Origin: DATKZS01 sp035527835 [NCBI: bacterium]
GTDB lineage: Bacteria; RBG-13-61-14
Reading direction: 5' to 3'
DNA length: 21,134 nucleotides
Assembly (NCBI GenBank): GCA_035527835.1
Contig: DATKZS010000033.1
Coordinates: forward strand, 1-21,134
The translations under genes were made by a program, and so were the position numbers. Every line of letters starts with the position of its first letter. Position 1 is the first letter of the stretch. This document shows positions 8,819 through 21,116 of the stretch, piece after piece. The notes beneath the pieces are model-generated. The model did not search any database. It was not told the DNA's origin and saw only the letters and a list, made by a program, of their open reading frames with translations.

Positions 8819-8899
8819 TTTAACCACAGATGAACACGGATTAACACCGATAAAACCTAATTTAAAATCCGTGTTAATCCGTGTTCATCCGTGGTTAAA
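8819..8899. repeat. Long hairpin repeat between convergent genes
   Basis: Arms 8819-8851 and 8867-8899 are 33-nt inverted repeats with two mismatches around a 15-nt AT-rich loop. Each arm is made of near-repeats of an 11-bp word, such as ACGGATTAACA. It fills most of the 131-bp gap between the end of the esterase (8794) and the end of the 673-residue protein gene (8926), so it can act as a terminator for both directions, although neither side has a clear T-run. I recognise the word as common in intergenic DNA of environmental bacteria, from memory only. Confidence 0.9.
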
Positions 8900-8925
8900 C
8901 TCCTCCGCCCAACACTCACTATTGC

Positions 8926-10947
8926 TCACCCACCCACCTTGGCCATGATCATGCGCCTGGTCTTGATCTGATCGTCACTCCATTGGCGCACGAGCTCGTC
9001 GAGGGGGATGCCGAAGGGCGGTCCGCTCCGGCCTTCCATCACCACCTCGCGGGTGGTGGGGTTATACTGCACGGAAAAGCCCCGGCCCAGGTAAGCGCGG
9101 ACCGCCTGCAGCGTGCTCTCGGCGTGGGCCAGGCGCTTGGCCTGCAAGCCGGCCTCCCTGGCCGCGAACGTTCCCGGGAAATGGCCGCGCAGCACCGCGA
9201 GCTTGACCGGATTTCTGAGGTCCACCATAAGGTTCATCTCCGGCCCGTGCACCTCCAGGGTCCCGTCGAACGCCCGCCGCGGCATGAGCCCGAGCTTCTG
9301 CGCGGCCCGGCTGAACAGGGCCTCGATCCGGTCCATGTCGGCGAAGGCGCAAAGGCTGTAGCCCCCGTCGCAGCTCACCTTCGTGGAAAGATCGGCGAGC
9401 CACGCCGGATACTCATGCGCGACGCACTCCCCCGCCGACGGGTCCGGGCCCGTGAGCGGCACCGGCCAAAACCCCGGACGCTTGCTCACCAACTGGTCGT
9501 GGAACTTGTTGACCGTGGATGACGCCGCCTGCGGACTCATCGGCGGCAGCGCGAGCCCGACGAACCCAGGCCCGAACTCCTTCCACTCCGGCTTTTTTAC
9601 CGTCCTTTGCAGAAGCTCGCGCCACAAGTCCACTACTGACAGCGGCCGCCCCGCCAGCTTGGCAATGGACTGGTCGGTGATGGCGATGGCGTGGCTCTGG
9701 TTCTCGCCCTCGCTCATGAACTGGATGAAGGAACGCCGCCGGCCCGGCCGGCGCTCGTTCAGGAAATAGATGTCGCGTCCCTGGTCCGCGAGGTGGTGGG
9801 CATAGGCGGCGAGGATCAGGTGCTCGAACCCCAGCGGCTGGCGGCAGCGCGAGCAGTGGTAGGTCGCCATCCGGTTCCCGCCCACCAGCATCTGCTTGAT
9901 GCGCTCCATGGCCTGCGCCGCGCGGTACAGCGTGAGCGGGTCCTCCTCGCTCCGGAAGCGGCTCCGCGTCTGGCACGCCTGGCACTCCGCCACCGCCCAG
10001 GCCATGTCCGGGACATTGAGCCCGTGCTGCTCCACCAAGGTCCGCCGCGCGAACATGAACTCGCCGCGCACGCTGGTCATGCTCGAGCGGCCGCCGGCGA
10101 ACGGGTTCTTGCCAGGGACTTGGGCGTTCTCATGCGCGGTGAGCACCCGGAGCCGCACCCGGTCCACCTTGGCCTCCGGGCTCTGGTTCAGCGCGTACAG
10201 CCCTTGATAGGCCTCCAGGAGGCCCGCCCTTTTCTTGATGAACAGGTCCTCGACGTATTCATAGCTCTGGAAGCGGAACCAGACCTTGTCCTTCTTCCAC
10301 ACCCGCACCCGCTCCGCCATCAGCCTCTCGGCGGGATCGTCCTCCGCCGGAGGCAGGGCCTCGTCCAGCGCCGCGCGCAGCAGGTGGTTGAGCGCACGCA
10401 CCAGGGGACGGATCAGCTCGCGCCCCTCCGCCGCCAGGGTCCATACCGGAAGGAGGTGTTTTTCCAGGACCTGGTCCATCTGGCCAAGCCCCTCGCCCAT
10501 GCGCTTGAGCCGGACCTGGAACAGACGCTCCACCGCCGCCCCCAGCGCCCGGGCCAGGGACGCCGGGTTGAGCGGATCATCCTGACCCGCGTGGTAAACC
10601 GCCGCGCACAGCGCCGCCGCCGGCGTGGCCTCGCACAGCCACTCGACCTCCTTGCCCGGAGAGGGGACCGTCAGGAACTCGAGCCGGCTCAGCGGCCGCA
10701 CCAGCGTCTTGTACCGGGCCGCAACCGCCAGGAGGCGCGCGTCGTCAAAGTCGTACTCCCCGGTCATGAACAGGGCTCGGCACTCGTTGTTGATGAGGTA
10801 TGCGGCGACCGGCGAATAAATGGCCGGCAATGCCCGCTCCTCCACCACCGCCTCCGGGCAGGACGGCGGAGAGAAGCCCGGAGCGATCCCCTCCAGGTAC
10901 TTCCTGACCGCGGCCGCCGCCCGGTCCGATGCTGTTACCATGACCAC
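8926..10947 (-). CDS. Uncharacterised 673-residue protein with two CxxC pairs
   Basis: I do not recognise this protein. It has no signal peptide or membrane segment, so it is probably cytoplasmic. Residues 1-120 look globular. About 135-260 is rich in Leu, Arg, Lys and Glu and probably helical. A possible zinc ribbon is formed by C322/C325 (ECQACQ) and C365/C368 (YHCSRCRQ), 40 residues apart. The C-terminal half has mixed alpha/beta composition, including VSCDGGYSLCAF and a basic end (KTRRMIMAK). Zinc ribbons of this type often contact nucleic acid or partner proteins, but no enzyme motif is visible. The GTG at 10947 has AAGG 7 nt upstream; ATG at 10941 is an alternative. It follows purA by 190 bp on the same strand, with hairpins between, so it is probably separately controlled. 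The opposite-strand frame is a composition shadow. Confidence 0.75.
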   Translation of the reverse strand: MVMVTASDRAAAAVRKYLEGIAPGFSPPSCPEAVVEERALPAIYSPVAAYLINNECRALFMTGEYDFDDARLLAVAARYKTLVRPLSRLEFLTVPSPGKEVEWLCEATPAAALCAAVYHAGQDDPLNPASLARALGAAVERLFQVRLKRMGEGLGQMDQVLEKHLLPVWTLAAEGRELIRPLVRALNHLLRAALDEALPPAEDDPAERLMAERVRVWKKDKVWFRFQSYEYVEDLFIKKRAGLLEAYQGLYALNQSPEAKVDRVRLRVLTAHENAQVPGKNPFAGGRSSMTSVRGEFMFARRTLVEQHGLNVPDMAWAVAECQACQTRSRFRSEEDPLTLYRAAQAMERIKQMLVGGNRMATYHCSRCRQPLGFEHLILAAYAHHLADQGRDIYFLNERRPGRRRSFIQFMSEGENQSHAIAITDQSIAKLAGRPLSVVDLWRELLQRTVKKPEWKEFGPGFVGLALPPMSPQAASSTVNKFHDQLVSKRPGFWPVPLTGPDPSAGECVAHEYPAWLADLSTKVSCDGGYSLCAFADMDRIEALFSRAAQKLGLMPRRAFDGTLEVHGPEMNLMVDLRNPVKLAVLRGHFPGTFAAREAGLQAKRLAHAESTLQAVRAYLGRGFSVQYNPTTREVVMEGRSGPPFGIPLDELVRQWSDDQIKTRRMIMAKVGG

Positions 10948-10997
10948 GTCTTCGCCTTAATCCATTTCAGAATAAAATAGATGGCGGCAAAATTCCA

Positions 10998-11020
10998 GGC
11001 GGCGCAATGCTTCCGCCGCC
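10998..11020 (-). terminator. Possible terminator after purA
   Basis: On the minus strand GGCGGCG and CGCCGCC form a perfect 7-bp stem around a 9-nt loop, followed by TGGAATTTT. The T-run is short and displaced by 5 nt, so this is a weak candidate. It lies about 120 bp after the purA stop. Confidence 0.35.
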
Positions 11021-11025
11021 AAGCG

Positions 11026-19804: not shown

Positions 19805-20775
19805 TTCTTGCCGCTCTCCTGAAGGCGCGCGAGGTCCGCGTCCACCATCATCCTGACCAGCTCTTCGAACGACACCTCCGGGGTCCAGTCCAGGATTTTT
19901 TTGGCCTTGCCCGCGTCGCCCACCAGCGTGTCCACCTCGGCCGGCCGGAGCAGCGACTTGTCGGCCTTCACGAACTCCTGATAATTCAGTCCCGCGTGCT
20001 CGAACGCGATCCGGCACAGGTCGCGGACCGAATGCTGCACTCCGGTGGCGATCACGAAATCGTCCGGCCGCTCCTGCTGCAGCATGAGCCACATGGCCTT
20101 GACGTAATCGCCGGCATAGCCCCAGTCCCGCCGCGCCTCCAGGTTCCCGAGCCTGAGCTCGCGCGCGAGATCCAGCTTGATCCGCGCCGCCGCGTCGGTG
20201 ATCTTTTTCGACACGAACTCGAGCCCGCGGCGGGGCGACTCGTGGTTGAACAGAATCCCCGAGCAGGCGAACAGGCCGTAGCTCTCGCGATAGTTCACCG
20301 TGATGTAATGGCCGTAGGCCTTGGCCACGCCGTAGGGGCTGCGCGGGTGGAACGGCGTGGACTCCGTCTGCGGGACCTCGCGCACCTTCCCGAACATCTC
20401 CGATGAGCTGGCCTGGTAAAACCGGATCTCCGGATCAACCAGCCTGACCGCCTCCAGCATCCGCGTCACCCCGATCGCCGTGAACTCGCCGGTCAGTACC
20501 GGCTGGTTCCAGCTCGTCGGCACGAAGCTCATCGCCGCCAGGTTGTACACCTCCGCCGGACGCGACTCCCGCAGCGCATGGGTCAGCGAGTTCTGGTCGA
20601 GCAGGTCGCCCTGAATGAACTCGATCCGGTCAAGAATGTGGGTCAGACGGAGCAGGGTCTCGGTGGACGAACGCCGGATCATCCCGAACACCTTATAGCC
20701 CTTCTCCAGCAGGAAATCCGCCAGGTAGCTCCCGTCCTGTCCGGTGATCCCGGTTATCAAGGTCCGTTTTTCCAT
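19801..20775 (-). CDS. gmd: GDP-mannose 4,6-dehydratase
   Basis: Converts GDP-mannose to GDP-4-dehydro-6-deoxy-D-mannose in the cytoplasm, using bound NADP. The 324 residues match the short form of the family. Visible are [12 protein letters not shown] (8-19), R34 R35 S36 S37 after the second strand (phosphate of NADP), SSSEMFG (123-129), catalytic Y148 and K152 (YGVAKAY) and the signature [22 protein letters not shown] lies 5 nt before the ATG. It opens the operon gmd, rmd, kinase, whose genes overlap by four bases each, implying translational coupling. Its upstream region is filled with repeat elements, and no convincing promoter is seen there. Confidence 0.97.
19815..19820 (-). promoter_or_regulatory. 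Ribosome binding site for the GTG start of rmd
   Basis: AGGAGA on the minus strand, inside the end of gmd and 10 nt before the GTG at 19804, supports GTG as the true start where no ATG fits. Confidence 0.5.
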
Positions 20776-20806
20776 GTCATCTCCCCGGTTCGCTGTTCAG
20801 AAAATA

Positions 20807-20899
20807 ATTTTTGACAGGATTAACAGGATGAACAGGATGAAAGAAAATAAGCATTTACTCGCTCCGGAAAATCCTGTAAATCCACTCTTGTCCAAAATA
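20807..20899. repeat. Inverted-repeat element built of a 9-bp word
   Basis: Three head-to-tail 9-bp units, CAGGATTAA, CAGGATGAA, CAGGATGAA (20815-20841), are preceded by ATTTTTGA. A decayed right arm at 20870-20899 starts with AATCCTGTAAATCC and ends TTGTCCAAAAT. ACAGGATT (20814-20821) pairs perfectly with AATCCTGT (20870-20877). It lies just upstream of gmd in a 359-bp stretch without a gene. Confidence 0.75.
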
Positions 20900-20910
20900 G
20901 GCCGTAAGAA

Positions 20911-21116
20911 AACCGCCAAGACGCCAAGAGCGCCAAGGATCGCCAAGTAAATCATGATGTTTCTTTGCGGCCCGGCAAAGAACAGCTCCGGAACGTTGGC
21001 CCCAACCGGCTTGGCGAACCGGCCGACGGGAGCGCCAAGCCAGAAACATTCGCACCCAAGCCCTCTTAAAATCGTGTTGAAAAATAATCCTTGGCGCTCT
21101 TGGCGTCTTGGCGGTT
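20911..21116. repeat. 206-bp element with perfect 30-bp terminal inverted repeats
   Basis: Arms 20911-20940 and 21087-21116 are perfect 30-bp inverted repeats, themselves made of GCCAAG words spaced 8, 9 and 10 bp apart (a fourth copy is at 20942-20947). Inside are further inverted repeats: TTCTTTGC/GCAAAGAA (20961-20968 with 20975-20982), GGCTTGGCG/CGCCAAGCC (21008-21016 with 21033-21041) and ATGTTTCT/AGAAACAT (20957-20964 with 21042-21049). No reading frame of note is inside, so it is not a standard insertion sequence. Confidence 0.88.

Follow-up and report, generated by a model that had tools for sequence, protein, structure and literature searches.

Three short elements, A, B and C, lie in a window of 21,134 nucleotides (nt) from the bacterium DATKZS01 sp035527835 (assembly GCA_035527835.1, contig DATKZS010000033.1), and each is built from tandem words of 9 or 10 nt. 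We conclude, with a probability of about 0.7, that all three are non-autonomous copies, lacking a gene, of small word-ended elements marked by a GxxExxY gene. The link to this gene is strong for the class as a whole, well supported for B, and less direct for A and C. In the proposed full element, an inward-facing word array would be followed by one GxxExxY gene and by the same array inverted. A first-pass annotation of this DNA had described three unrelated word families sharing one architecture; on our reading they would share it because each word family forms the ends of a different subfamily of a single element kind.

Word arrays beside GxxExxY genes

The survey set consisted of 198 genomes of the phylum Desulfobacterota (the phylum of G006), whose mutual kinship is not given and which are therefore not independent; genomes and loci are designated here by G and L numbers. 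A SerA-type protein encoded in the window shows up to 72% identity with Desulfobacterota genomes, and the source of the window looks Desulfobacterales-like. Matches to PF13366, the GxxExxY family, were present in 72 of the 198 genomes. In most of the first 30 GxxExxY loci, inverted word arrays stood just outside both gene ends, and the words varied between loci and agreed between the two ends of one locus. With the next 40 loci by E-value among the matches listed, the sample comprised 70 loci, of which 69 were usable; two entries, near a contig end or with an internal stop, were skipped in sampling. Across this sample and that of the IVP family described below, L294 (an IVP locus) was excluded for N runs, and L223 and L303 for short flanks. 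At an arm-score threshold of 13.5, inverted arms of 8-10-nt words were found on both sides of the gene in 55 of the 69 loci. Among ordinary open reading frames (ORFs) called mechanically in L001-L057 as controls, the same score was reached by 7 of 524 ORFs of at least 150 amino acids (aa) and by none of 174 ORFs of 100-200 aa. The loci below threshold, 14 at GxxExxY genes and nine at genes of a second family described below (IVP), were counted as misses. The best array lag was 8-10 nt in 50 of the 55 loci, compared with 24-26% of ordinary ORFs, and full GxxExxY elements spanned 425-862 bp in the measured loci. The earlier annotation had suggested looking for an associated enzyme gene shared by the three families, and the GxxExxY gene is the one that was found.

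The window elements connect to this class through their own arms. The top ten matches of every one of their six arms were GxxExxY flanks (60 of 60, where one locus may occupy several places), which supports the common cause that the first-pass annotation had suspected. A-like words occur beside GxxExxY genes in L201, L208 and L276, B words in L216, L272 and L287 as well as in L281 (below threshold), and C words in L257, L258 and L278. The words are also not wholly unrelated, as had been claimed; by eye, those of A, B and C fit one loose grammar, approximately [CA][AG]C[ACG][AG]A[GT] followed by 2-3 free bases, and many words flanking GxxExxY genes have this grammar too.

For the shared enzyme, a transposase of the Y1 (RAYT) type had been named, and A, B and C would then be repeats like the repetitive extragenic palindromic sequences (REP) or REPIN that such a transposase moves. 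We regard this as highly improbable. The three elements are hairpin-shaped, intergenic and dispersed, as in REP/REPIN, and Y1_Tnp is present in 141 of the 198 genomes, including 18 of the 19 with A words and 20 of the 21 rich in B words; in addition, one Y1 locus (L410) has heptad-like inverted arms. However, arms at threshold stood beside only 4 of the 23 Y1 (PF01797) genes used (30 fetched), against 55 of 69 for GxxExxY. The three passing Y1 loci besides L410 show a single inverted repeat with no word array, and A, B or C words were found at none of the four.

The element genes match PF13366, and two of their proteins match the GxxExxY model TIGR04256 at 151 and 148 bits. In 17 aligned GxxExxY proteins, GxGxxExxY, D63, E73xK75 and Q87xxxY91 are invariant, and we take these GxGxxExxY, D, ExK and QxxxY residues to fit a PD-(D/E)XK nuclease. 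One of two proteins gave a weak Cas4-like match (E 0.00087), and in a sequence search of PDB the sole GxxExxY match up to E 1 was at 0.11. A structure predicted from two viral-contig sequences had a predicted local distance difference test score (pLDDT) of 37.6 and was not used. In every close pair of GxxExxY genes listed, third-position changes exceeded second-position changes (for example 8 vs 0 for L220/L259), and these genes are under purifying selection. One peptide pattern tried on viral contigs returned three GxxExxY loci, and a viral origin is not favoured. At L340 (Sphingomonas), the coding sequence annotated for the GxxExxY protein takes in the 3' word array at its end, so that words encode the protein tail.

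Window elements, dispersed copies and gene-bearing parents

The features of the three elements are listed in Table 1. A and C are real structures far above chance, and B is weaker because its right arm is decayed. The arms of A pair over 44 nt (8808-8851 with 8867-8910, 84% complementary), those of C over 33 nt (20908-20940 with 21087-21119, 97% complementary). The DNA-fold z values are -9.8 for A and -8.8 for C, each matched by 0 of 200 shuffles, and their arm scores, 28 and 30.5, were each reached in 0 of 2000 shuffles. For B, which holds its three clean words as ACAGGAT, the fold z is -3.3 (1 of 200 shuffles equally good) and the arm score 10.5 (reached in 6 of 2000 shuffles), and a repeat search of the window did not detect its arms as an inverted pair. 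The plan proposed earlier, with words of 8-11 bp repeated about three times in one arm and inverted in the other, needs a correction for C, whose left arm holds four words and whose right arm holds three.

Table 1. Word-array elements of the window and their arms
Feature	Position	Strand	Description
Element A, gene-less word-array hairpin	8808..8910	.	10-nt words (ACGGATNAAC); loop 15 nt
A left arm	8824..8851	+	3 words: CCACAGATGAACACGGATTAACACCGAT
A right arm	8867..8894	-	3 inverted words
Element B	20807..20899	.	9-nt words (ACAGGATNN); left 3 clean words, right arm decayed
B left arm	20813..20841	+	GACAGGATTAACAGGATGAACAGGATGAA
B right arm	20868..20899	-	Single clear word (ATCCTG), others decayed
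Element C	20908..21119	.	9-nt words (CGCCAAGNN); 146 nt separating arms, inner hairpins, gene-less
C left arm	20908..20949	+	4 words, 33 nt pairing with right arm
C right arm	21087..21119	-	3 inverted words

Element A sits where two convergent genes end, between their stop codons, and B and C are on the upstream side of a gene resembling GDP-mannose dehydratase. No GxxExxY gene was seen inside A, B or C. An Rfam scan at the gathering threshold gave no match in the window, nor in 20 sampled loci, 10 of which were IVP loci. Elsewhere in the window, two sizeable ORFs, 8926-10947 (673 aa) and 17814-19019 (401 aa), had no Pfam match at E 0.001; the second contains a P-loop-like GAGGAGKTT stretch.

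Words of the same families are dispersed in other genomes. A words were found in 19 of the 198 genomes, with 55 hits in G185, and 7 of the 22 A loci examined form gene-less inverted pairs, whose arms hold at most three words each and are 54-127 nt apart. B words were found in 43 genomes, of which 21 had at least three hits and are called B-rich here. In G093, the B copies (11 loci) have a length of roughly 150-250 nt, and most contain inner hairpins. The C pattern matched 66 of the 198 genomes; these matches were not used as a count, because many of them resemble coding sequence and the reversed control gave matches as well. The families did not diverge widely in structure once copies were aligned. 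The possibility that they are decayed ends of known transposons, which the first-pass annotation had raised, is half right, since they have the look of gene-less derivatives, although no description of the element kind concerned was found.

A relation between gene-less copies and a gene-bearing parent is seen in one genome, G093. There, B words stand at either end of L432, an element with a GxxExxY gene (740-1078), and 7 of the 11 B loci align to segment 638-710 or 1103-1178 of L432 (L161 to both), the two segments that flank this gene. Across genomes, a pair of ACAGGAT words (at most one mismatch, within 260 nt) accompanied 9 of 37 GxxExxY genes in B-rich genomes, compared with 1 of 52 in genomes without B words (p 0.0013).

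Proposed word recognition, a sister class and turnover

Words follow the protein subfamily. For protein pairs below 60% identity, arm similarity increases with protein identity, both for GxxExxY (Mantel rho 0.231, p 0.001) and for IVP (0.102, p 0.003). At 60-75% protein identity, fourfold sites agree at close to the chance level (0.256 and 0.29), yet the arms remain clearly similar in 33% of 84 GxxExxY pairs and 24% of 46 IVP pairs. When two word classes were placed on a tree of 46 GxxExxY proteins, 4 changes sufficed, compared with 14.5 in shuffled data (none of 500 shuffles went as low), and the ACAGGAT loci of G022, G130, G081 and G188 form one subclade. Between the two arms of a locus, words agree at 0.91-0.92 and spacers at 0.67-0.78 (50 GxxExxY and 44 IVP loci). 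Because a stem maintained for pairing only should not favour words over spacers, we infer that the words are recognised sites.

From these patterns, the following mechanism can be proposed. The GxxExxY protein, a predicted PD-(D/E)XK nuclease, would bind its own words, which would serve as several sites a fixed distance apart, and might join the two ends or fold them as a hairpin. It would then cut or process the element, and the element would be copied into the boundaries of genes, as a rule after one stop codon and before the following start. Copies without a gene could be moved in trans if they retain the words. The number of words would shift by whole units, and the arms would be kept alike by selection on the words together with occasional copying between arms. 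The sister class would follow the same scheme with a four-helix-bundle S23/IVP protein and words mostly of 7 nt.

This sister class was seen at genes matching PF05635 (23S rRNA IVP, a four-helix bundle), which are present in 109 of the 198 genomes. The IVP sample was chosen like the GxxExxY one (70 loci, seven entries skipped), and 68 loci were usable after dropping L294. Arms at threshold flank 59 of these 68 genes; their best lag is 7 or 14 nt in 44 of 59 and 8 nt in 10 of 59, and 7 or 14 nt is the best lag in 16-19% of ordinary ORFs. Words of one heptad family, TCGTNAN, were found in 40 genomes, and IVP matches are present in 38 of these 40, compared with 71 of the 158 genomes without the heptad (p 1e-9); GxxExxY matches are present in 27 of the 40 and in 45 of the 158. 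A reversed TCGTNAN control also matches a minority of genomes; since the reversed pattern is a heptad word in its own right, it does not provide a clean null. Relatives of IVP in PDB are 2gsc and 2rld, with five chains listed for each. The idea that five words per arm mirror a pentameric IVP ring was dropped, since the number of words per arm ranges from 2 to more than 10 and does not peak at 5. For Avd, a protein of diversity-generating retroelements, the model is matched by two IVP proteins, weakly and under its cut-off.

An explanation without any enzyme is very unlikely in our judgement. In it, slippage would produce the tandem words, the arms would come to match because the polymerase switches template across hairpins, any sequence could drift into this plan, and the genes would be bystanders. 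The number of words does differ by whole words between G158 and G101, a comparison of word number between genomes that the first-pass annotation had advised, and the agreement of the arm spacers is above that of unrelated sequence (local alignment inflates this figure), so the arms may share descent. Yet the close association of the arrays with two gene families would be left unexplained, as would the lag of 8-10 nt in one family and 7 nt in the other, the tracking of the protein tree by the words, and the combination of kept cores and variable spacers. Template switching between arms, which had been offered as one possible mechanism, is not borne out either, as the higher agreement of words than of spacers points to word recognition.

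The upstream gene is co-oriented with the element gene in 56 of 58 IVP loci and 40 of 49 GxxExxY loci, and all 58 analysed IVP loci have ORFs of at least 200 nt on both sides. Where measured, the median gap is 4 nt from the stop codon to the element and 18-22 nt from the element to the next gene (to its most upstream possible start). Such placement would fit survival between a stop and the next start, together with a need for transcription from upstream. The sense orientation and the tight packing between stop and start could also be expected if the words were regulatory sites acting through RNA folding, G-quadruplex formation or translation control, and if the genes were selected cargo and not movers. 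Published heptamers were interpreted in this way, as translation regulators or G-quadruplex formers, in the accessible text of two papers (PMC4679880, PMC4692102). We consider this reading unlikely, however, as word hits far exceed genes (191 B word-pair hits in G093 vs 5 PF13366 matches) and sites turn over, as for selfish elements.

Turnover could be followed at two sites. At the first, G027 and G101 carry an IVP element with AGCTNNC words and G065 a different IVP element with AGAAGTC words, and the more distant G035, G052 and G037 have only 33-73 nt between the aligned anchors. At the second, a GxxExxY element is present in G027 and G065 and gene-less ones in G158, G101 and G130; two of the gene-less elements hold a nested heptad array, the array in which the word number differs between G158 and G101. 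A recent event is seen in G065, where a gene-less heptad element interrupts a GxxExxY gene that G027 keeps whole, and 208 nt stand in place of 135 nt of target. Comparison of two regions, at 93.9 and 95.0% identity, listed 27 gap differences of at least 60 nt, and 12 of them, chosen partly by inverted-repeat score, were read; most hold word-array sequence by eye.

Some further observations were made in G027 and G065. In L373 (G065:C2) and L374 (G027:C4), heptad arms enclose a GxxExxY element, and the G065 heptad insert in the gene has similar words. An AT-rich word family (CAAATG/TCAAA, about 9 nt), to which no gene was assigned, occupies G027:C4 64012-64151, 130347-130605 and 171860-172095; at each site it is longer in G027 than in G065, and a heptad array is nested in 171860-172095. 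At G027:C3 87434-87604 (L486-L488), an insert of about 170 nt has terminal hairpins and nested AAAATGN words; the G065 site is empty, and the insert shows a clean TAGGG duplication at a TAG resembling a stop codon.

Several of our own results count against the proposed relation between genes, words and copies. The sampled loci were the best PF matches and not a random sample. In a stricter control, in which flanks were paired across GxxExxY loci (95th percentile 13.5, 99th 19.0), only 34 of 69 GxxExxY loci exceed 19.0, and 41 of 69 IVP loci (L294 included) lie above the 99th percentile of cross-paired IVP flanks. Self-match at the best lag in GxxExxY arms is modest (0.29-0.62), and PF13366 also matches in 3 of 14 control genomes outside the examined set. 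For the protein tree, the regular expression for the word classes was composed after viewing the arms, nine mixed loci were dropped, and ACAGGAT-bearing L216 falls outside the ACAGGAT subclade. B-word-bearing GxxExxY genes were found in 7 of the 16 B-rich genomes sampled and not in the other 9, and a PF13366 match is missing in 4 of the 21 B-rich genomes. The same in-genome test fails for A (2 of 15 vs 2 of 66, p 0.15), and in G185, the genome with 55 A hits, two of the four PF13366 matches were examined and both carry other words. As several of these assemblies consist of many contigs, such absences are not decisive. Word-rich genomes are enriched for IVP and Y1_Tnp too, so co-occurrence is partly general, and we judged genome co-occurrence alone as weak evidence because of this enrichment. 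Finally, no target-site rule is apparent, given the replacement of 135 nt by 208 nt; no clean target duplication was noticed at most of the 12 sites read, and the sole clean 5-bp duplication belongs to the hairpin-ended insert of a different look.

Known repeats, other phyla and implications

The same plan was found on plasmids of other phyla. Loci were fetched for 8 of 30 IVP and 6 of 8 GxxExxY plasmid matches, and the flanks of 13 among the 38 listed matches were inspected. The plan is shown by IVP loci of Calothrix (two), Nostoc, Anabaena, Pseudanabaena and Gemmatirosa, and by GxxExxY loci of Sphingomonas, Bacteroides, Bernardetia and Gemmatirosa; as exceptions among those inspected, the Prevotella locus had no word array, Treponema had one word per side, and Stanieria was weak. 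Some plasmid elements lie inside recognisable gene pairs, namely fabD-fabG and, twice, cas6-cas4, and one lies between two ribonucleotide reductase genes in opposite orientation. In L343 (Anabaena sp. 90) and L344 (Pseudanabaena galeata), the gene between cas6 and cas4 is a four-helix-bundle gene, and the heptads are AGGTGAC and AAGCTAA. L334 and L335, from two Calothrix brevissima NIES-22 plasmids, have integrase, S23 and hypothetical genes with identical spacing.

One of the nearest known systems is the intervening sequence (IVS) of 23S rRNA, which is located in 23S rRNA helices and excised by RNase III. For Coxiella, the accessible text describes an IVS of 428 nt, a 28-bp terminal inverted-repeat stem and one S23p/IVP-family gene (PMC4990558). 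An IVP gene between inverted-repeat ends is likewise found in the sister class (59 of 68) and not in the window elements; unlike the IVS, the elements described here appear to lie at protein-gene boundaries, end in word arrays and, in the window class, go with GxxExxY. Heptamer repeats are a second likeness. As described in the accessible parts of the papers, GGGAATC arrays of Xanthomonas form 70 and 75 inverted pairs in two genomes (PMC4692102), TAACTGA arrays of Beggiatoaceae change mostly in 7-nt steps (PMC4679880), and heptamer repeats were stated to lack a clue to their explanation (PMC6344855). These repeats, together with GGGGA(C/T)T of Nostoc, have 7-nt words and are mostly intergenic, like the IVP class. 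The short tandemly repeated repetitive (STRR) sequences of cyanobacteria belong among them as well. The window elements differ from all of these in using 9-10-nt words.

REP/REPIN with their RAYT genes are also short dispersed intergenic hairpins whose mover gene lies elsewhere, and the accessible text on them describes a conserved GTAG/CGTC-type tetranucleotide at one end (PMC3733652). By contrast, the elements here have flanks without a RAYT link, word arrays in place of a single palindrome, and many different words. Miniature inverted-repeat transposable elements (MITEs) resemble A and C in their terminal inverted repeats, and the gene-less copies that match end segments of gene-bearing L432 are a further likeness; however, the gene-bearing copy encodes GxxExxY (PF13366) and not a DDE transposase, and a constant target duplication was not seen at the sites read. 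In the open-licence literature (subscription papers and preprints lay outside the search), no link of heptamer repeats or MITEs to S23, IVP or GxxExxY genes was found in the accessible texts; the terms S23 and four helix do not occur in the accessible text of PMC4692102 or PMC4679880, and none of the papers listed for GxxExxY, PDDEXK_3, TIGR04256 or PF13366 had a repeat-related title. The GxxExxY word-array element is an element kind for which we found no description in that literature.

In a wider sense, the IVP class could account for intergenic heptamer repeats across bacteria. More tentatively, and at somewhat less than even odds, we suggest that two unrelated proteins, the PD-(D/E)XK-type GxxExxY and the Avd-like ring protein S23/IVP, may each run a widespread class of selfish elements, with tandem-word ends (8-10 nt and 7 nt, respectively) read by subfamily. 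The IVP class would then explain the global intergenic heptamer periodicity and would have supplied the intervening sequences of 23S rRNA, and the word would be a fast-changing address common to the protein, the parent element and its gene-less copies.

With this association, repeats that were reported piecemeal and interpreted separately gain a gene, and hence a test. The element classes have been seen in Desulfobacterota and on plasmids of Cyanobacteria, Gemmatimonadota, Bacteroidota and Alphaproteobacteria. If the coupling of words and proteins holds, two families whose annotations, "GxxExxY protein" and "four helix bundle protein", name only a motif or a shape would be the hallmark genes of element classes, and the elements would offer a natural series of protein-word pairs for learning how repeated words are read by a protein of about 120 residues.

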